Positions 13,457-62,078 of a DNA stretch of 64,000 nucleotides are shown piece after piece. The notes under the pieces are model-generated. The model had not been told where the DNA came from. It ran no database searches and worked only from the letters and a program-made list of their open reading frames with translations. A program made the position numbers and the translations under genes. Each line of letters begins with the position of its first letter. The stretch's first letter is position 1. This DNA comes from Actinomycetes bacterium (GTDB taxonomy: Bacteria; Actinomycetota; Actinomycetes; S36-B12): positions 62,001 to 126,000 of the forward strand of contig JAHECS010000003.1 in NCBI GenBank assembly GCA_024641635.1, in the 5' to 3' direction.

Positions 13457-14329
13457 CTAGCGCATGACTCGCAGGGAGATCTTCATCCTGACGTCGCAGT
13501 CCCGGTCGATGACCCAGACCTCGAGGTTCGTGGCCGCGAGGGCTGCGGTCTCGGGATCGGAGGCCTCGGTAGCCGCGGCCTCCGCGACCGGATCGGCGGC
13601 GACGACCACGCCGGCGTCCTGCCCCTCGAAGGTGGAACGGTCGACGATGAGGGCCGTGGAGTCCTCCTCGGCGGTGAGCTTGGTGATGCAGTCGCGCAGG
13701 CTCTCCGGCGACGACAGGAAGCCGTCGGCCGGGGCATCGGGCATCGGAACCTCGTCCGGCGCCGGCTCGGAGGCTGCCTCGGCGGGCGAGGGCATGGCGT
13801 CGAACGCCTGCAGGACCTCGGACACCTGGGTGCTGAGCGCCGAGGGCGTGTAGTCGGTCTTGGAGTCGACCAGGCGCAGGGCGGGCGGCACCATCCCGGC
13901 GAAGGACATCATGGCCGGCGCTGCCAGGGCCTCGGGCGCGGCGACGGCCTCGGCCACGCCGGCGGAGTCCTCCGCGGCCGTGTCGACCTTCTGCTGGCTG
14001 GTCGGCACGGCGTCGCCAGCGACCACCGCACCTCCTGAGCCGTCGTTCTGGAAGGCGGTGACCGCCACGCCGACGGCGAGGACGGCGACCGATGCCGCGA
14101 CGAGTCCGCCCCCCCAGCGCAGGAGTCTCGACGGACGGCGGGCCGGACCGGCGGGAAGCTCGGCGGCCAGGGAGTCGGTGATCCGGTGCCATACCCAGTC
14201 GGGCATGGGCTCGGCAGCCACGTCGGGCCGGAGGAAGTCGAGGTCGTGCAGGGCCCGGGTGACCCTGTCGAGGTCTGCCGGGTCGATGTCATCGTCCACG
14301 TCGCGCGGATGGTCCGGCTCGTCAGCCAT
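13457..14329 (-). CDS. Membrane-anchored anti-sigma factor for SigM
   Basis: The 290-residue protein overlaps the sigM 3' end by 8 bases. It has an acidic cytoplasmic N-terminus with [17 protein letters not shown], a basic cluster RRPSRLLRW, one TM helix ([21 protein letters not shown], about residues 91-111) and an extracytoplasmic domain of about 175 residues. This matches the position and topology of the mycobacterial SigM anti-sigma factor. No classical HxxxCxxC zinc motif is visible. The function is inferred from context and topology. Confidence 0.78.
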
Positions 14330-14939
14330 GCTGGGTTCGACCTCCTTCCGGGTCTACGACGGGGTTCGGCGAGTCCAGGTTCCGTAGGAAGGCGAGCCGT
14401 TTGGCCAGCTTGCCGCGTCCGCGGAAGCAGCGGCTCTTGACCGTGCCCTCGGGGATCCCCAGCTTCAGGGAGGCCTCCTCGATGGACCAGCCCTCCACGT
14501 CGACGAGGATGACGGCCGCTCGCTGATCCTCCGGAAGCTCGGACAACGCCTGGACCACGACCAGCTGGATCTCCCGCTGACCCATCTGGTCCGTGGGGTC
14601 GGCCACCACGGCTCCGGGCAGTGACTCGTCGTCATCGGGGAGGGTGGAGGTGGGTCGGGCCTTCCGGCGACGCAGCCGATCGAGGCTGGCGTTGACGACG
14701 ATGCGGTGGAGCCAGGTCGTCACCGCCGAGTCGCCGCGGAACTGCTCGGCGCGTCGGTAGGCGGAGATGAGTGCGTCCTGGAGGGCGTCGGCCGCCTCCT
14801 CTGGGTCCCCGGTCGTGCGCAGGGCCACGGCCCACAGCCGGTCCCGGTGTCGGCGAACCAGCTCCTCGAACGCACCCTGATCGCCGGCGACATGCGCGGC
14901 GAGCAGGTCCGCGTCGCTGCGCGGGTCCGAGGTGGTCAC
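14322..14939 (-). CDS. sigM: SigM-type ECF RNA polymerase sigma factor
   Basis: The 205-residue ECF sigma factor has region 2 (GDQGAFEELVRRHRDRLWAVALR, DALQDALISAYRRAEQFRGD, TWLHRIVVNASLDRLRR) and region 4 (ALSELPEDQRAAVILVDVEGWSIEEASLKLGIPEGTVKSR). It precedes its anti-sigma gene and follows murJ and the pseudokinase gene, the conserved sigM locus. The start is a GTG; TAGGCT (minus strand, 14946-14951) lies 6 bases upstream, consistent with a leaderless transcript. Confidence 0.9.
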   Translation of the reverse strand: MTTSDPRSDADLLAAHVAGDQGAFEELVRRHRDRLWAVALRTTGDPEEAADALQDALISAYRRAEQFRGDSAVTTWLHRIVVNASLDRLRRRKARPTSTLPDDDESLPGAVVADPTDQMGQREIQLVVVQALSELPEDQRAAVILVDVEGWSIEEASLKLGIPEGTVKSRCFRGRGKLAKRLAFLRNLDSPNPVVDPEGGRTQHG

Positions 14940-53649: not shown

Positions 53650-56328
53650 GTGACCGCTGTGCTCGACCGCGAGGTCCCCCTGCACGGCAAGGCCGTGCAT
53701 GAGGTCGTCCTGTTCCTCGGGACGGACCTCGACCGAGGCCTGTCCTTCGACGAGGCTCGCCAGCGGCAGGAGCGGTTCGGCCCCAACGTGCTCCCGCCGA
53801 ACCGGCGGCACGGACCCCTCGTGCGCTTCCTTCTCCAGTTCCACAACCCGCTCGTGTACGTGCTGCTGGCCGCGGGCGCCGCGACCCTGGCGATCGGCCA
53901 TCTCGTCGACGCAGCGGTGATCGTGGTCGTCGTCCTGGTCAATGCCGTCATCGGGTACGTGCAGGAGTGGCGGGCCGGTCAGGCGCTCGAGGCCCTCGCA
54001 GCCGCGACCCGCACCGAGGCCACAGTGGTGAGGGAAGGCGAGGCCATGCGCCTGGACTCGCGCGACATCGTCCCCGGCGATGTCGTTCAGGTCGAGGCAG
54101 GGGACAAGGTGCCGGCCGACCTCAGGCTCACGCGGGTGAAGGACCTCCACGTCGACGAGTCATCCCTGACAGGTGAGTCGGTGCCCGTCGAGAAGGGCCT
54201 ATCGCTCCTGCCGGTCGACACGTCGCTGGGTGACCGCTTGAACATGGCCTACTCGAGCACGTTGGCCACGGCGGGATCGGGCACGGGCGTTGTCGTGGCC
54301 ACGGGAGTCGAGACCGAGATCGGCCGGATCCACCAGCTGGTGGGTCAGGCCGAGGGGGTTCAGACGCCGCTCACCCGCAAGCTGGCCCGCTTCAGCCGCT
54401 GGCTCACCGTCGTGATCCTGGGCCTTGCCGTGTTCACCTTCGCCATCGGTCTCCTGCGGGGCGAGGACGCGGCGGAGATGATGCTCGCCGCGGTGGCGCT
54501 GTCCGTGAGCGCGATCCCTGAGGGCTTGCCCGCCGCCGTCACGATCACCCTCGCCATCGGGGTCTCCCGCATGGCTCGCAGGCACGCGATCATCCGGCAG
54601 CTGCCCGCCGCGGAGACGCTGGGCAGCACCACGGTGATCTGCACGGACAAGACGGGCACCCTGACCGAGAACCGCATGACGGTGCAGTTCGTGTACGCGC
54701 ATGGGCAGGTGCACGAGGTCGGGAGCGGACGTGCGGAGCACGTTGGCCCGTGCCTGCAGGCCGGGGTGCTCTGCAACAACGCCGACCTCGCGGTGGACGA
54801 GGAGGGCAGGACCGTCGGCATTGGCGACCCCACGGAGGTGGCGCTGCTGCTTGCCGCGTCCAGCCGCGACGTCCTCGTCGACGACGATCACTGGACGCGG
54901 ATCGACGAGCTGCCCTTCTCCTCTGATCTGCGGCTCATGGCGACCCTGCACCAGGAGGCGGACCGGGGGACCTGTGCGGTCTGGGTCAAGGGCGCGGTCG
55001 AGCAGGTTCTCGATCTCTGCGTGGTCGAGCGCGATGAGGACGGCGGGGAGCGGCCCGTCGAGCGTGACCGCATCGAGCGACACGTGCGGGCGTTCGGGGA
55101 GAAGGCCCTTCGGGTGCTCGCCTTCGCCGTCGCCGAGGTTCCGAGGGGCTGGTCCTTCGAGGGCAACCGGCTGAGGGATCTGCGCATGACCTTCCTTGGC
55201 CTGCAGGCCATGGCCGACCCGCCGCGTCCGGAGGCCATCCGCGCTGTCGCCGCCTGCCGAAGTGCCGGCATCGAGGTGAAGATGATCACCGGTGACCATG
55301 CCCACACCGCTCGCGCGATCGCCCGCCAGATCGGACTGGCGGCCGGCGCCGATGGTGAGCCGAACGTCCTCGAGGGCCTCGAGATGCAGCGACTCAGCGG
55401 GTCGGACCTGGCCGAACGCGTGGACCGGGCCGACGTCCTTGCGCGTGTGTCAGCAGCGCAGAAGCTGGAGGTGGTCGAACTGCTCCAGCGGCGAGGTCAC
55501 GTCGTCGCGATGACGGGAGACGGCGTCAACGATGCCCCCGCCCTCAAGCAGGCGGACATCGGCGTCGCCATGGGGCGGGGCGGGACGGAGGTGGCCAAGG
55601 AGGCCTCCGCGATGGTCCTCACGGACGACGACTTCGCCTCGGTGGAGGCGGCTGTCGAAGAGGGCCGCAGCGTCTTCGACAACCTGACCAAGTTCATCAT
55701 CTGGACACTTCCGACCAGCTTGGGTGAGGCCCTGGTCGTGCTGTCCGCCATCGTTCTCGGTGCCGTGCTCCCGGTCATGCCGGTCCAGATCCTGTGGATC
55801 AACATGACGACGGCCGTCGCGCTCGGACTCATGCTCGCCTTCGAGCCGGCTGAGCCCGGCATCATGGACCGCCCGCCGAGGGCGCCCGACCAGCCCATCC
55901 TCACCGCCGTCCTGGTGCGGCGCATCGTCCTCGTCGGCGCGTTGATGCTCGTCGGCGCCTTCGGAGCGTATGAGATGGCGCTGGGGTCCGGCCTGTCCGT
56001 GGAGGCGGCACGCACGATCGTCGTCAATGCCTTCGTGGCGATGGAGATCGGCTACCTGCTCAACTGTCGTGCACTCGATCGCTCAGTCCTCAGCGTGGGG
56101 CTGCTCACCAACCGCCCCCTTCTGCTGGGCGTGGGAATCATGATCACCCTGCAGCTCCTGCTGACGTACCTGCCGGTGCTTCAGACGGTGTTCCGGACGG
56201 AGCCGATGTCGTGGGTGGCGTGGGCGGGCGTGGTGATCCTCGGCGTGGTGGTCTTCCTGGTGGTCGGGATCGACAAGTGGCTCGTCGCTCGCCGGCTCAG
56301 GTCTGCAGCTGGCCGCGCACCACGCTGA
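53650..56328 (+). CDS. P2-type cation-transporting ATPase
   Basis: The 892-residue pump has an N-terminal cation-ATPase domain, actuator motif LTGESVPVEKG, and ion-binding helix M4 IPEGLP near residue 295. The phosphorylation site DKTGTLTENRM lies near 336 and the hinge MTGDGVNDAPALKQADIG near 620. Ten TM helices are predicted. PEGLP and overall form fit Ca2+ or Na+/K+-type P2 ATPases rather than heavy-metal P1B pumps, as no CPx or HMA motif is seen. The ion is not determined. It starts at a GTG 57 bases after the GerMN gene. Confidence 0.92.
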   Translation: MTAVLDREVPLHGKAVHEVVLFLGTDLDRGLSFDEARQRQERFGPNVLPPNRRHGPLVRFLLQFHNPLVYVLLAAGAATLAIGHLVDAAVIVVVVLVNAVIGYVQEWRAGQALEALAAATRTEATVVREGEAMRLDSRDIVPGDVVQVEAGDKVPADLRLTRVKDLHVDESSLTGESVPVEKGLSLLPVDTSLGDRLNMAYSSTLATAGSGTGVVVATGVETEIGRIHQLVGQAEGVQTPLTRKLARFSRWLTVVILGLAVFTFAIGLLRGEDAAEMMLAAVALSVSAIPEGLPAAVTITLAIGVSRMARRHAIIRQLPAAETLGSTTVICTDKTGTLTENRMTVQFVYAHGQVHEVGSGRAEHVGPCLQAGVLCNNADLAVDEEGRTVGIGDPTEVALLLAASSRDVLVDDDHWTRIDELPFSSDLRLMATLHQEADRGTCAVWVKGAVEQVLDLCVVERDEDGGERPVERDRIERHVRAFGEKALRVLAFAVAEVPRGWSFEGNRLRDLRMTFLGLQAMADPPRPEAIRAVAACRSAGIEVKMITGDHAHTARAIARQIGLAAGADGEPNVLEGLEMQRLSGSDLAERVDRADVLARVSAAQKLEVVELLQRRGHVVAMTGDGVNDAPALKQADIGVAMGRGGTEVAKEASAMVLTDDDFASVEAAVEEGRSVFDNLTKFIIWTLPTSLGEALVVLSAIVLGAVLPVMPVQILWINMTTAVALGLMLAFEPAEPGIMDRPPRAPDQPILTAVLVRRIVLVGALMLVGAFGAYEMALGSGLSVEAARTIVVNAFVAMEIGYLLNCRALDRSVLSVGLLTNRPLLLGVGIMITLQLLLTYLPVLQTVFRTEPMSWVAWAGVVILGVVVFLVVGIDKWLVARRLRSAAGRAPR

Positions 56329-56998
56329 TGGCGCTGTGCCCGGCGTCGCCGTCGAAGTGCTCGACAGAGACATCGACCACCGGGAACGCATCGACCGCCA
56401 TGCCGGCCGGCAGGGGGAACGTCGCCTCGCTGCCAGGGTTCATGGTGCCGATCGCGACCATGGTCGTGGCGTCCGGCGTCGCCATCCACACCTCGTAGTA
56501 GCCGTCGTCGACGTCGGGCAGTCCGGGGACGTCCACGTGGAGGATCGGCCCAGCCGTGGTCTGCTCCACCTCAGCCGAGCCGGAGAAGCCCGAGTCGTCG
56601 ATCGGCCCCAGGCTGGCGCTGGCCAGCAGGTCCGCCGAGCCGGTTCCGCTGGTGACCCCTGCGGTGACGACCACGCCGACGAGGACGCCGGCAACCGCGG
56701 CCGCGCCCGCCAGCAGCCAGGGCGCGGCACGTCGCCGACGGCTCGGTGCTGCGGCCAGGCTCGTCACGTTCGACAGGGAGTCCATCCCGAGCTCGGAGGT
56801 GATGGCCTCCCACACGGCCGGCGGCGGGTCGGTGGGCCGGTCGGCCTCCGTGATGCCGCGAGCGGAGGTCACGACCGCGCTCAGCTGGTCGAGCCGGCTC
56901 TGGCATCGGGGGCACGACTGAAGGTGCGCCTCGTCCGAGGCACTGGCGGGCTCGCCGAGCGCGATGATCGAGAGTTCGTCGTCGTCACAGTGCAGCAC
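56297..56998 (-). CDS. rskA: RskA-like membrane anti-sigma factor
   Basis: The 233-residue protein has an N-terminal zinc-type anti-sigma domain, with HLQSCPRCQSRLDQL giving the HxxxCxxC motif. One TM helix (WLLAGAAAVAGVLVGVVVTAG) and an extracellular RskA C-terminal domain (GYYEVWMATPDATTMVAIGTM, FPVVDVSVEHFDGDAGHS) follow. It overlaps the sigma gene by 14 bases. In mycobacteria RskA restrains SigK and is degraded by regulated proteolysis; the same mechanism is inferred. Confidence 0.9.
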   Translation of the reverse strand: MLHCDDDELSIIALGEPASASDEAHLQSCPRCQSRLDQLSAVVTSARGITEADRPTDPPPAVWEAITSELGMDSLSNVTSLAAAPSRRRRAAPWLLAGAAAVAGVLVGVVVTAGVTSGTGSADLLASASLGPIDDSGFSGSAEVEQTTAGPILHVDVPGLPDVDDGYYEVWMATPDATTMVAIGTMNPGSEATFPLPAGMAVDAFPVVDVSVEHFDGDAGHSAISVVRGQLQT

Positions 56999-57596
56999 CG
57001 TCCACCTCCAATCTCGTTCGAAGCCGGTCGAGTGACCGGCGGATATGGCTCTTCACGGTGCCCAGCGGCAGGTCCAGCAGCCCGGAGATCTGGGCGTGGG
57101 TCAGGTCCTGGAAGAAGGCCAGCTCGATGATCTTCCGCTGCGGCTGGCCGAGCCGCTCGAGCTCGTCGGCCAGCAGCACGCGGTCGACGATGAAGTCCGA
57201 CGGCGGCTCCGCCGGGTCCTCAGTGGTCGCGAGCGCGGCAGCCGACATGCGTCGGTCCTCCCGCGACCGCTCCTCCCAGTGATCGGCGACGCGCCGACGG
57301 GTGATGGTCATGAGCCATCCGGGAAGGGAGCCCTTGGCCGGGTCGTAGCCGTGCCGGCCACGCCAGGCGCTCACGAAGACGGCCTGCGTGATGTCTGCCG
57401 CGTCCGCCGAGTTGCCCGTCGATCGCAGGGCGACCGCGTGGACGAGTCCGGACCACCGCTGGTAGGCGACGGCCAGGGCCTGGTCGTCGCCGGCCTGAAA
57501 GCGAGCCGCGACGACGTCGTCGCCGTCCTCCCGCACGCGCTGCTCCCCGGTGTCCGTTGTCGACCGCCGTACGGAGGCCGCAACCTCAGTATGCAC
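56985..57596 (-). CDS. sigK: SigK-like ECF RNA polymerase sigma factor
   Basis: The 203-residue ECF sigma factor has region 2 (ALAVAYQRWSGLVHAVALRSTGNSADAADITQAVFVSAWRGR and WLMTITRRRVADHWEERSRED). Region 4 is LERLGQPQRKIIELAFFQDLTHAQISGLLDLPLGTVKSHIRRSLDRLR. The GTG 57594-57596 is chosen because AAGGAGA lies 6 bases upstream. Pairing with an RskA-type anti-sigma factor and divergence from a fasciclin gene matches the mycobacterial sigK/mpt70-mpt83 theme. Confidence 0.88.
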   Translation of the reverse strand: MHTEVAASVRRSTTDTGEQRVREDGDDVVAARFQAGDDQALAVAYQRWSGLVHAVALRSTGNSADAADITQAVFVSAWRGRHGYDPAKGSLPGWLMTITRRRVADHWEERSREDRRMSAAALATTEDPAEPPSDFIVDRVLLADELERLGQPQRKIIELAFFQDLTHAQISGLLDLPLGTVKSHIRRSLDRLRTRLEVDGAAL

Positions 57597-57639
57597 AGTC
57601 GGTCTCCTTGGTCGGTGCAGAGGTGGTGCTCTGCCCCTT

Positions 57640-57667
57640 CTTCGGCCACTCGCCGCGGATTGGATGC
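57640..57667 (-). promoter_or_regulatory. Predicted autoregulated promoter of the sigK-rskA operon
   Basis: On the minus strand GCATCC (57662-57667) and CCGAAG (57640-57645) are separated by exactly 16 bases. The mycobacterial SigK consensus is, to my knowledge, CCATCC-N16/17-CCGAAT. The start codon lies 43 bases downstream. Confidence 0.7.
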
Positions 57668-57722
57668 AGTCCGGGGGGAGGAATTCCGGCTCTGGCGGGC
57701 CGGCCCATGAGGAAATGGAGGG

Positions 57723-57743
57723 TTCTTCAAGAAAATTGAAGAA
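57723..57743. promoter_or_regulatory. AT-rich inverted repeat upstream of the fasciclin promoter
   Basis: TTCTTCAA and TTGAAGAA form perfect 8-base arms around GAAAA. This is very AT-rich for the genome and lies between the two divergent SigK-type promoters. It may bind an additional regulator. Confidence 0.4.
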
Positions 57744-57757
57744 AGTTCGGCGCGATT

Positions 57758-57785
57758 GCATCCACATGGCCATCTACCCCGGAAG
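57758..57785 (+). promoter_or_regulatory. Predicted SigK-type promoter of the fasciclin gene
   Basis: GCATCC (57758-57763) and CGGAAG (57780-57785) are separated by exactly 16 bases. This differs from the sigK operon promoter hexamers by a single base. The ATG is 61 bases downstream. Confidence 0.68.
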
Positions 57786-57846
57786 TAGGGGTAACAACCG
57801 CCCACCGGGGGCGGGGCCCGGCTCGGGCGGACAGAAGGAGAAGCAC

Positions 57847-58485
57847 ATGCGTACGTCGATCAAGCGGGTGGCCGCACTCAGCGCCGCCGCCCTCATCGGT
57901 GCCACCACCCTCGTGGCCGCCCCTGCGGCACAGGCTGCTGATGGCGAGATGTCCCTCGCCTCCGTTCTCAAGGTGGGTTCGGCCAAGTTCGACAAGAACG
58001 GCAAGGACTACGACATCGTGACGAAGGCCGCGGAGGCCGTTCTCGCCGCGAAGCCGGACTCCAACGTCAAGCTGCTCGCGGACGGCTCGGTTGCCCTGAC
58101 GGCCTTCATCCCCAACGACCAGGCCTTCATGAACCTCGCCTCGGCGCTCAAGGGCAAGACTGTCCGCACGGAGGCTGGTGCGTTCAAGACGGTCGCCGGC
58201 CTGGGCATCGACACCGTCGAGACCGTCCTGCTGTACCACGTCGTTCCGGGCTCGACGATCATGTCGACCGACGCCCTCAAGGCCAACGGAGCTCGGCTGA
58301 AGACCGGCGTCGACGGCAAGGTCATCCGGGTCAAGGTGACCAAGACCCCGTCGATCATCCTGGGCGACTACGCACCGAAGCTGAAGAACCCCCGCGTCAT
58401 CCTGTCCCAGGTGGACATCAACAAGGGCAACATGCAGGTCGCGCACGGCATCAACGCCGTGCTCCTGCCCATCGCGGCTGGCTGA
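57847..58485 (+). CDS. Secreted fasciclin (FAS1) domain protein
   Basis: The 212-residue protein has a Sec signal peptide (VAALSAAALIGATTLVAAPAAQA) and one FAS1 domain: VKLLADGSVALTAFIPNDQAF (H1 region), VETVLLYHVVPGSTIMSTDAL, and VAHGINAVLLP (H2 region). FAS1 proteins mediate adhesion; mycobacterial MPT70 and MPT83 are SigK-controlled. This copy has no lipobox and no anchor, so it is probably released like MPT70. GGAG lies upstream of the ATG. A strong terminator follows. Confidence 0.9.
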   Translation: MRTSIKRVAALSAAALIGATTLVAAPAAQAADGEMSLASVLKVGSAKFDKNGKDYDIVTKAAEAVLAAKPDSNVKLLADGSVALTAFIPNDQAFMNLASALKGKTVRTEAGAFKTVAGLGIDTVETVLLYHVVPGSTIMSTDALKANGARLKTGVDGKVIRVKVTKTPSIILGDYAPKLKNPRVILSQVDINKGNMQVAHGINAVLLPIAAG

Positions 58486-58500
58486 TTCGCGCGCAACAGC

Positions 58501-58533
58501 AGGAGGCCCCCCGACACCGTCGGGGGGCCTCCT
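58501..58533. terminator. Bidirectional terminator between fasciclin and esterase genes
   Basis: AGGAGGCCCCCCGAC (58501-58515) pairs perfectly over 15 bases with GTCGGGGGGCCTCCT (58519-58533), with a 3-base loop. It lies between two convergent genes and can serve both strands. Confidence 0.85.
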
Positions 58534-60307: not shown

Positions 60308-61957
60308 TCACCTGCGGACGAGGATGGGCTTGGTCATCGTCGCGACCGCGTAGGTGGACGCCTGATCGGTGCTCGGGGTGTAGACGGCCTTGAGCACGTA
60401 CGATCCCGGCGCCACTCGGTACCGCATCCGCCACAGCCGCGTGGCCTTGCCCGTTGCCTTCACCGATCGAGCCTTGGCGATCACCTTGACCTCGACGCCG
60501 GTGGCCGAGACCAGGCTGATGCGTACCCGCCCGCGGACGGCGGCATCGCTGAACCTGACGGTGTAGCGACGAACGGTCCCGCGCTTGACCCGCTTGGGCC
60601 CGGTGAGCTTCGCCGTGACACCGGCGGCGACGGTGACCGTCTGGCCGCCCGACACGGCGGGCGGGGGCGGCGTCGGCGGCAGTCCGTCGATCGCCTGGAC
60701 GTTGCTGGCCGCCGCTGACGCGGACGTGCCGTTGAGATTGATCGCCTTGACGAGCACGCGCATCCGCTTGCCTGCGTCGTCGGAGGTGATGACGTACGAG
60801 GACGCCGTCGCGTTGGCGATGTCGCTGCACGACGACGCGTCCGCGGTCTCGCAGCGCTGCCACTGGTAGGTGTAGCTCGTGGGCAGCCACGACCAGGTTC
60901 CGTTCGTGACAGTCAGGGTCTGCCCCACCGCCGTGCTCGTCCCTGTGATGGCTGCGGGTCCCGTCGACACCGGCACGACCCCGGTCAGGACTCGGGCGAG
61001 CCGGTTGCCGTCGGCCTGGGTGAACCAGATGTTGCCGTCGGCAGCGCTGGTGATGCCGCTGGGCGAGGACCCGGGGGTGCCGATCGCGTACGAGGAGATC
61101 GAGCCCGATGTGGTGATGCGGCCGACCCGATTGACGCCGGGCATGGTGAACCACAGGGCCTTGTCGGCCCCGGCGACGATCTGACCGGGCTTGGCTCCCG
61201 CGTACGGGAGCGCGAACTCGCCCAGGAGTCCCTTGGGCGTGATCCGGCCGATCCGGTCGCCCGCGGTCATCGTGAACCACAGGTTGCCGTCCGGTCCGGC
61301 GACGATGCCGGTCGGCTGCGAGCCGGGTGCCTGAAGCGGGTAGGTGCTGACGACGCCGGTCGGCGTGATCCGCCCGATCGCGTTGCCCTTGGTCAGGGTG
61401 AACCACAGGTTGCCGTCCGGCCCGGCAGCGATACCCGTCGGCCCGGAGTCCTTGGCCAGCGAGAACTCGGTGATCGACCCAGCGGTGGAGATGCGCGCGA
61501 CGCGGTCGGCGGCGAACTGCGTGAACCAGAGGTTGCCGTCCTGCCCGCTGGCGATGCCCCGGGGCTTGGCGTCCTTGGTCGGCAGCGGATAGCCGGCAAC
61601 GGCTCCGGTGGCGGGCGTGACGGCGCTGACCTCGTTGCTTGTCTCCTCGGTCATCCACATCCGCTTGTCCGACCCCAGCGCGATGGCCGTCGGGCCGGGG
61701 TTGCTGGACCCGCCCTTGAGCACGGTCGAGATCTTTCCGTCGAGGCCCGCCTTGCTGAGCAGAGCGCTCCCGCCCTGAGTGATCCACAGCGTGCCGTCGG
61801 CCGCGGACGCGAGAGCGCCGGGTGCCGAAGCGGCGTCCGGGAACGTGAATTCGGTGATGTCGCCGGTGGCTGCTGAGGCGGGCGGCGCCACGAGGAGCAT
61901 CGAGCCGATGAGGCCGGAGACGAGGAGGGCGGACGGGACGGAACGTGCGAAACGCAT
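60308..61957 (-). CDS. Secreted Vgb-like seven-bladed beta-propeller protein
   Basis: The 549-residue protein has a signal peptide (VPSALLVSGLIGSMLLVAPPASA). Seven propeller repeats of about 42 residues follow, marked by DGTLWIT, DKRMWMT, DGNLWFT (three times), DKALWFT and DGNIWFT. An Ig-like domain (GTWSWLPTSYTYQWQRCETADASSC) and a C-terminal beta domain come last. The propeller resembles streptogramin lyase Vgb, but the whole protein contains no histidine, so Vgb-type catalysis is not supported. It is probably a binding or structural exoprotein. Confidence 0.82.
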   Translation of the reverse strand: MRFARSVPSALLVSGLIGSMLLVAPPASAATGDITEFTFPDAASAPGALASAADGTLWITQGGSALLSKAGLDGKISTVLKGGSSNPGPTAIALGSDKRMWMTEETSNEVSAVTPATGAVAGYPLPTKDAKPRGIASGQDGNLWFTQFAADRVARISTAGSITEFSLAKDSGPTGIAAGPDGNLWFTLTKGNAIGRITPTGVVSTYPLQAPGSQPTGIVAGPDGNLWFTMTAGDRIGRITPKGLLGEFALPYAGAKPGQIVAGADKALWFTMPGVNRVGRITTSGSISSYAIGTPGSSPSGITSAADGNIWFTQADGNRLARVLTGVVPVSTGPAAITGTSTAVGQTLTVTNGTWSWLPTSYTYQWQRCETADASSCSDIANATASSYVITSDDAGKRMRVLVKAINLNGTSASAAASNVQAIDGLPPTPPPPAVSGGQTVTVAAGVTAKLTGPKRVKRGTVRRYTVRFSDAAVRGRVRISLVSATGVEVKVIAKARSVKATGKATRLWRMRYRVAPGSYVLKAVYTPSTDQASTYAVATMTKPILVRR

Positions 61958-62078
61958 GGTGAAGGACTCCAGGCATGTCGGGGGAAGTACCTCCATGCTG
62001 GGCCAATCCGCCCGCCGAGCGTGGGAACGACGGGTTGCAGGCGTGTCGTACCGTGACGGTCGGGTACGCCTCAGTCGC

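Follow-up and report, generated by a model that had tools for sequence, protein, structure and literature searches.

In M. tuberculosis, the extracytoplasmic function (ECF) sigma factor SigK and its membrane anti-sigma factor RskA are tied to the fasciclin proteins MPT70 and MPT83, one of which is secreted and the other lipid-anchored. The RpoE-ChrR system of Azospirillum and Rhodobacter likewise ties an ECF system to a fasciclin gene; it has a sigma factor of a different group and a soluble, ChrR-type anti-sigma factor, as opposed to the membrane RskA type found at the locus described here. Previous work has established that RpoE-ChrR controls a fasciclin gene in Azospirillum (PMC10949492) and that the R. 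sphaeroides fasciclin gene RSP_1409 is induced in photooxidative stress (PMC7074977). In M. kansasii, SigK-type fasciclin genes are induced by light, and the trigger of the tuberculosis SigK-fasciclin antigens is still described as obscure (PMC9861118). The SigK-fasciclin link has also been published outside mycobacteria: SigK sites are reported to be conserved among Actinobacteria, and the minimal mpt83-sigK-rskA cassette of Yersinia enterocolitica has a sigma site upstream of its fasciclin gene (PMC7509140).

The locus studied here lies within a 64-kb stretch of DNA (the window) from the draft genome of an actinobacterium; those of its relatives that have names are metagenome assemblies, recorded as Candidatus Nanopelagicales or just as Actinobacteria. 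Like the M. tuberculosis system, it combines an ECF sigma factor with a membrane RskA-type anti-sigma factor, has the promoter cores CATCC and CGAA, and involves one secreted and one lipid-anchored fasciclin protein, whose control is predicted in our system. It also resembles the Yersinia cassette in its compact set of fasciclin, sigma and anti-sigma genes (PMC7509140). Unlike in M. tuberculosis, however, the sigma factor belongs to another clade, the anti-sigma N-terminus is of another type, and the fasciclin gene is divergent from the sigma gene instead of residing at a distant locus. We believe, with a probability of about 0.86, that the intergenic region controls a small surface-protein regulon, autoregulated and under a SigK-related ECF sigma factor that would be held by the anti-sigma factor of its own operon, a reading that is based on sequence comparison.

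Twin sites between the sigma factor operon and the fasciclin gene

Two 28-bp sites stand back to back in the intergenic region. On the minus strand, the putative promoter of the sigma/anti-sigma operon (57640..57667) reads GCATCC-AATCCGCGGCGAGTGG-CCGAAG from 57667 to 57640, with the -35 box at 57662-57667, a 16-bp spacer and the -10 box at 57640-57645. On the plus strand, the putative promoter of the fasciclin gene (57758..57785) reads GCATCC-ACATGGCCATCTACCC-CGGAAG from 57758 to 57785, with the -35 box at 57758-57763, again a 16-bp spacer, and the -10 box at 57780-57785. In both, a T immediately precedes GCATCC, and 1 of the 12 motif bases differs between them. The initial annotation had described two sites of identical spacing with a single-base difference, one turned towards the sigma/anti-sigma operon and the other towards the fasciclin gene; its coordinates, spacers and single difference were all correct, and the predicted orientation agrees with the gene order. 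From the end of the -10 box it is 44 bases to the GTG start of the sigma gene and 62 bases to the ATG of the fasciclin gene, and transcripts are expected to start at about 57630-57634 on the minus strand and about 57791-57795 on the plus strand, respectively. The site pattern occurs in the 64-kb window at these two places only, where 0.15 occurrences were expected and two were seen in 1 of 100 shuffles. A promoter scan for sigma-70 promoters found none, and an Rfam search returned nothing meaningful.

The divergent sigma/fasciclin arrangement is also present in genomes of the same genus, in genus g2 and in genome G064. Across 15 orthologous intergenic regions, GCATCC-N16-nnGA(A/T)(G/T) was found on 29 of 30 strands (shuffles: mean 0.09, maximum 4), and when spacings from 10 to 23 were scanned, the only matches besides those at 16 were two at 19. 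On the sigma side, GCATCC and a -10-like box at the same spacing occur in 16/16 related loci, and on the fasciclin side the orthologous site is present in all 15 readable loci; these counts are not independent because the loci are related. In a column-wise comparison, the two boxes are better kept than the rest of the intergenic region, and unbiased dyad counting came upon this motif again, in 13 of the 16 upstream regions (best shuffled motif, 4). The pair of sites is therefore not due to chance, since it is kept across relatives.

The fasciclin gene (57847..58485, plus strand) encodes a secreted FAS1 protein of 212 aa (PF02469; 41.1 bits against a cut-off of 22), with a signal peptide read from the sequence and no lipobox cysteine. 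A direct PDB sequence search with this protein alone gave no match; matches came from profile and fold searches. Its structure model adopts a FAS1 fold (pLDDT 68.6), and at this model confidence the fold search matched AstaP, fasciclin I, a fasciclin-like protein of R. sphaeroides and MPT70, the nearest solved relatives by both sequence profile and fold being carotenoid-binding FAS1 proteins.

Directly 5' of the fasciclin -35 box lies a further element, TTGAAGAAAGTTCGGCGCGATT (57736..57757, plus strand), which has the form TTGAAGAA-n4-CGGCGCGATT and which, together with GCATCC, is the same at 25 of 28 bases in the promoter of a second, unlinked fasciclin gene of the source genome. Generalised to TTGAMnAAnnTnTGRCGCGATT, it was found at 23 sites in 14 genomes (1 in the control), both at linked and unlinked fasciclin promoters and, in the genus, upstream of a whiB gene; besides the window, it was noted at loci L233, L240, L235, L246 and L251. 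Because the element is common to fasciclin and whiB promoters, it may be an activating element or a place where a further regulator, common to them, binds. A GC hairpin (CCGCCC-accgg-GGGCGG; 57798..57814, plus strand) opens the predicted fasciclin transcript and is found in most relatives, with 85.6% of cells paired, above slid controls, and 2 pairs with two-sided changes; as shuffles equalled this two-sided pair count in 72 of 500 cases, conservation of the hairpin as an RNA structure is suggestive only. A GC-rich inverted repeat (58500..58531), read from the sequence where the fasciclin gene and an esterase gene converge, is a probable terminator and was not reported by a terminator scan. 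Further along, the minus-strand gene at 60308-62032 encodes a large protein with matches to propeller models of the virginiamycin B lyase type, though its 256.9 bits fall far short of the 600-bit cut-off of the resistance-enzyme models; its product is probably a secreted propeller protein.

A sigma and anti-sigma pair related to SigK and RskA

The sigma gene (56985..57596, minus strand) encodes an ECF sigma factor of 203 aa with Pfam domains Sigma70_r2 and r4; it has a GTG start and, 7 bases upstream, AAGGAG as a good ribosome site. Against the NCBIfam SigK model NF007228 the protein scored 107.9 bits, below the cut-off of 226, whereas the true SigK of the same-genus genome G046 reached 270.3 bits. 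In a tree of 77 proteins, to which we give moderate weight because a quick method was used, M. tuberculosis SigK falls into a clade of 34 members (SH-aLRT 91) and the window sigma factor into a separate clade of 41 (SH-aLRT 97). G046, G052 and G053, all of the same genus, have members in both clades; no true SigK was found in the source genome. The initial annotation had named the gene sigK, an identification that lacks support, given the model score, the separate clade and the presence of a true SigK alongside in these three genomes: the window sigma factor is a cousin of tuberculosis SigK and not SigK itself. The window protein has no cysteine at all, including at the positions of SigK cysteines 133 and 183; we rejected this absence as a distinguishing mark because the true SigK of G046 also lacks both. 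A second ECF sigma gene in the window (14322-14939, minus strand) encodes a protein 29% identical to the one studied here.

The partner gene (56297..56998, minus strand) overlaps the sigma gene by 14 bp and encodes a membrane anti-sigma factor with one membrane helix, placed by hydropathy at about residues 93-113, and past it an RskA_C domain (PF10099; 45.3 bits, cut-off 29.4). The N-terminus, MLHCDDDELSIIALGEPASASDEAHLQSCPRC, has no match to RskA_N (PF22618), which is present in the true SigK partner of G046. In the ECF19 group, AS19-2 anti-sigma factors have the helix 1 and 2 consensus HLDPDQLALLA / GEPLDADERAHL, and the M. tuberculosis anti-sigma factor belongs to group AS19-1 (PMC7406223). 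Compared by eye with the published sequence, the stretch HCDDDELSIIALGEPASASDEAHL of the window protein resembles the AS19-2 consensus LALLA...GEPLDADERAHL, a likeness in the helix 1/2 motif to ECF19 systems with AS19-2 (PMC7406223), and the window sigma factor would best be described as ECF19-like, of the AS19-2 branch. An ALGE-type anti-sigma motif is present in 58 of 105 clade members and in 0 of 32 SigK partners. The zinc motif HxxxCxxC in the anti-sigma factor was also considered as a mark against a SigK system and rejected, since it likewise occurs in the partner of the true SigK of G046. At its 3' end the anti-sigma gene overlaps a convergent P-type ATPase-like gene (53650-56328) by about 32 bp (56297-56328).

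For comparison, we derived true SigK promoters from genomes whose SigK is like that of M. tuberculosis (258.7 bits against the 4NQW chain). At true sigK loci the motif is CCATCC-N15-CCGAAT; the fasciclin genes of these genomes have CCATCC or a near variant, a spacer of 15 (8 cases) or 16 (2 cases), and CCGAAT. The window motif GCATCC-N16-CSGAAG thus has the cores CATCC and CGAA in common with the CCATCC-N15/16-CCGAAT of M. tuberculosis-type SigK but differs from it in the first base of the -35 box (G versus C), the last base of the -10 box (G versus T) and the usual spacer (16 versus 15). The label "SigK-type" that the initial annotation gave to the sites therefore holds in a broad sense only: they appear to be ECF-type promoters and are SigK promoter-like, with unlike edge bases and another usual spacing.

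Three genomes carry both kinds of cassette, namely G046 (L164), G053 (L166) and G052 (L167), in which a window-type cassette is accompanied by a true SigK gene adjacent to one for a fasciclin lipoprotein. These true SigK loci are cassettes of the mpt83-sigK-rskA kind, and in G046 the order is molybdopterin oxidoreductase-fasciclin lipoprotein-sigK-rskA, with the fasciclin gene upstream of sigK on the same strand, as in Yersinia (PMC7509140). In contrast to cassettes of this order, the window has a divergent fasciclin gene, two promoters and a sigma factor of the other clade.

Distribution of the site across genomes

Searching the source genome for the motif, as the initial annotation had suggested, as TGCATCC-N16/17-SGAAK gave five matches in 3.06 Mb: two are the window sites, a third is at the other fasciclin gene, and the remaining pair falls within the coding sequence of genes resembling dnaE2 and argJ. 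The search thus recovered three candidate promoters, those of the sigma operon and of both fasciclin genes. There are only two fasciclin genes in this genome, and the site is present at both. The unlinked one (L161, G000:C60), which has the site 39 bp upstream, encodes a lipoprotein, and together with the secreted window protein it parallels the MPT70/MPT83 pair. A broader scan with CCATCC or GCATCC was rejected as too loose, because it returned 18 sites when the reversed control already gave 6.

In 14 genomes of the genus, the pattern occurs at 34 sites, compared with 3 for the reversed pattern. By their coordinates, 20 of the 34 lie between the sigma and fasciclin genes, and 4 precede fasciclin genes that are unlinked; the remaining 10 are away from fasciclin or sigma genes, at least one of them in coding sequence. 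G043, too, has a fasciclin gene that is unlinked and has a site of its own. No site was found near those DUF4397 genes elsewhere in the genus that were inspected.

Sister genera have the sigma/anti-sigma pair at the end of an operon of the order DUF4397-sortase-sigma-anti-sigma, and in eight of the loci inspected (L281, L282, L283, L284, L285, L287, L288 and L292) the site is found at the operon head, about 1.75 kb upstream of the sigma gene. We accordingly rejected the idea that the motif is lost in relatives without a divergent fasciclin gene, many of which have it at this distance at the head of the longer operon. In Paractinoplanes (L121), one site precedes a divergent DUF4397-sortase pair and a second precedes a fasciclin gene 3' of the anti-sigma gene. 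Of about 100 loci of the window sigma clade, 22 have a linked fasciclin gene, and a site near the sigma gene was found in 19 of these, compared with 7 of the 78 that lack one. The three fasciclin-linked exceptions comprise two with a site at the fasciclin gene itself and L020, whose site has a weaker -10 box. In G035, G036, G068 and G071 the sigma factor is present and no recognisable site was found.

The site thus occurs at sigma operons and at surface-protein genes across genera, and it is therefore a promoter widely common to both. From this association of site, sigma gene and surface-protein genes, we infer that the sites are very likely recognised by the ECF sigma factor encoded next to them.

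Alternative readings and a model for the regulon

Could these instead be genuine SigK promoters beside a SigK orthologue, as the initial annotation proposed? The CATCC and CGAA cores and the similar spacing, the RskA-type C-terminus of the anti-sigma factor and the linked fasciclin gene are all in keeping with that view. We nevertheless regard it as improbable, given a score of 108 bits where the SigK model requires 226, the separate clade and the occurrence of both proteins in G046, G052 and G053, a window anti-sigma factor without the RskA_N domain that the true SigK partner of G046 possesses, and promoters whose edge bases are unlike those of SigK, for which the usual spacer is 15.

It is more doubtful still that GCATCC serves as the operator of some DNA-binding regulator and not as a -35 element. 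In divergent loci, TGCATCC and its mirror GGATGCA do face each other as an inverted pair, as an operator might, yet among the 15 orthologous intergenic regions the distance from one -35 box to the other ranges from 23 to 156 bp, which argues for two separate promoter units instead of one operator, while that from box to GAA core is almost always 16; moreover, at unlinked fasciclin genes and operon heads a promoter-oriented box stands without a divergent partner. We see equally little likelihood that one promoter, or the pair, is driven by a different ECF sigma factor of this genome. The genome has more ECF genes, including the one at 14322-14939 in the window, and cross-recognition among ECF sigma factors is known, but the motif is accompanied across genera by the window sigma gene, the ECF gene analysed in most depth, and by genes for surface proteins.

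Under our preferred reading, an autoregulated regulon of the adjacent SigK-related sigma factor, the anti-sigma factor from the same operon would hold the sigma factor at the membrane until a signal from outside relieves this restraint; the release is proposed by analogy with described systems. The freed sigma factor would then guide RNA polymerase to GCATCC-N16-nSGAAK and raise expression of its own operon, which may provide positive feedback as well as fresh anti-sigma factor, and of the fasciclin genes, both the divergent secreted one and the unlinked lipoprotein gene. The two near-identical, back-to-back promoters thus probably let one membrane-controlled sigma factor activate its own operon and the secreted fasciclin together. 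As to the signal, our guess is light or oxidative stress at the envelope, because of the analogous systems and because the nearest relatives of the window fasciclin are carotenoid-binding FAS1 proteins.

The initial annotation had presented the locus as a SigK-FAS1 link in a non-mycobacterial actinobacterium in the form of a compact divergent locus. The divergent locus is indeed there; the sigma factor is not SigK, and a link beyond mycobacteria had already been published (PMC7509140). A search that covered little of the subscription literature found no paper joining fasciclin, extracytoplasmic function sigma factor and Actinobacteria, and for the AS19-2 group the literature searched yielded no fasciclin, sortase or DUF4397 regulon or promoter. 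The apparent novelty lies in a parallel lineage of sigma factors, a second one beside SigK, whose anti-sigma factors are of the AS19-2 type and whose surface-protein regulon is tiny. We lean slightly towards a broader proposal, in which a SigK-like lineage with AS19-2-type anti-sigma factors runs a fasciclin/DUF4397/sortase surface regulon across Actinomycetota, in some genomes beside a true SigK-fasciclin cassette from which it would be separated by the outer -35 and -10 bases and by spacer length. The genomes with both cassettes are a natural test of promoter separation between two related sigma factors, and the compact two-promoter cassette of the freshwater relatives, with its regulon of few genes, offers an uncluttered setting in which to ask what signal releases the sigma factor and what role the fasciclins play.
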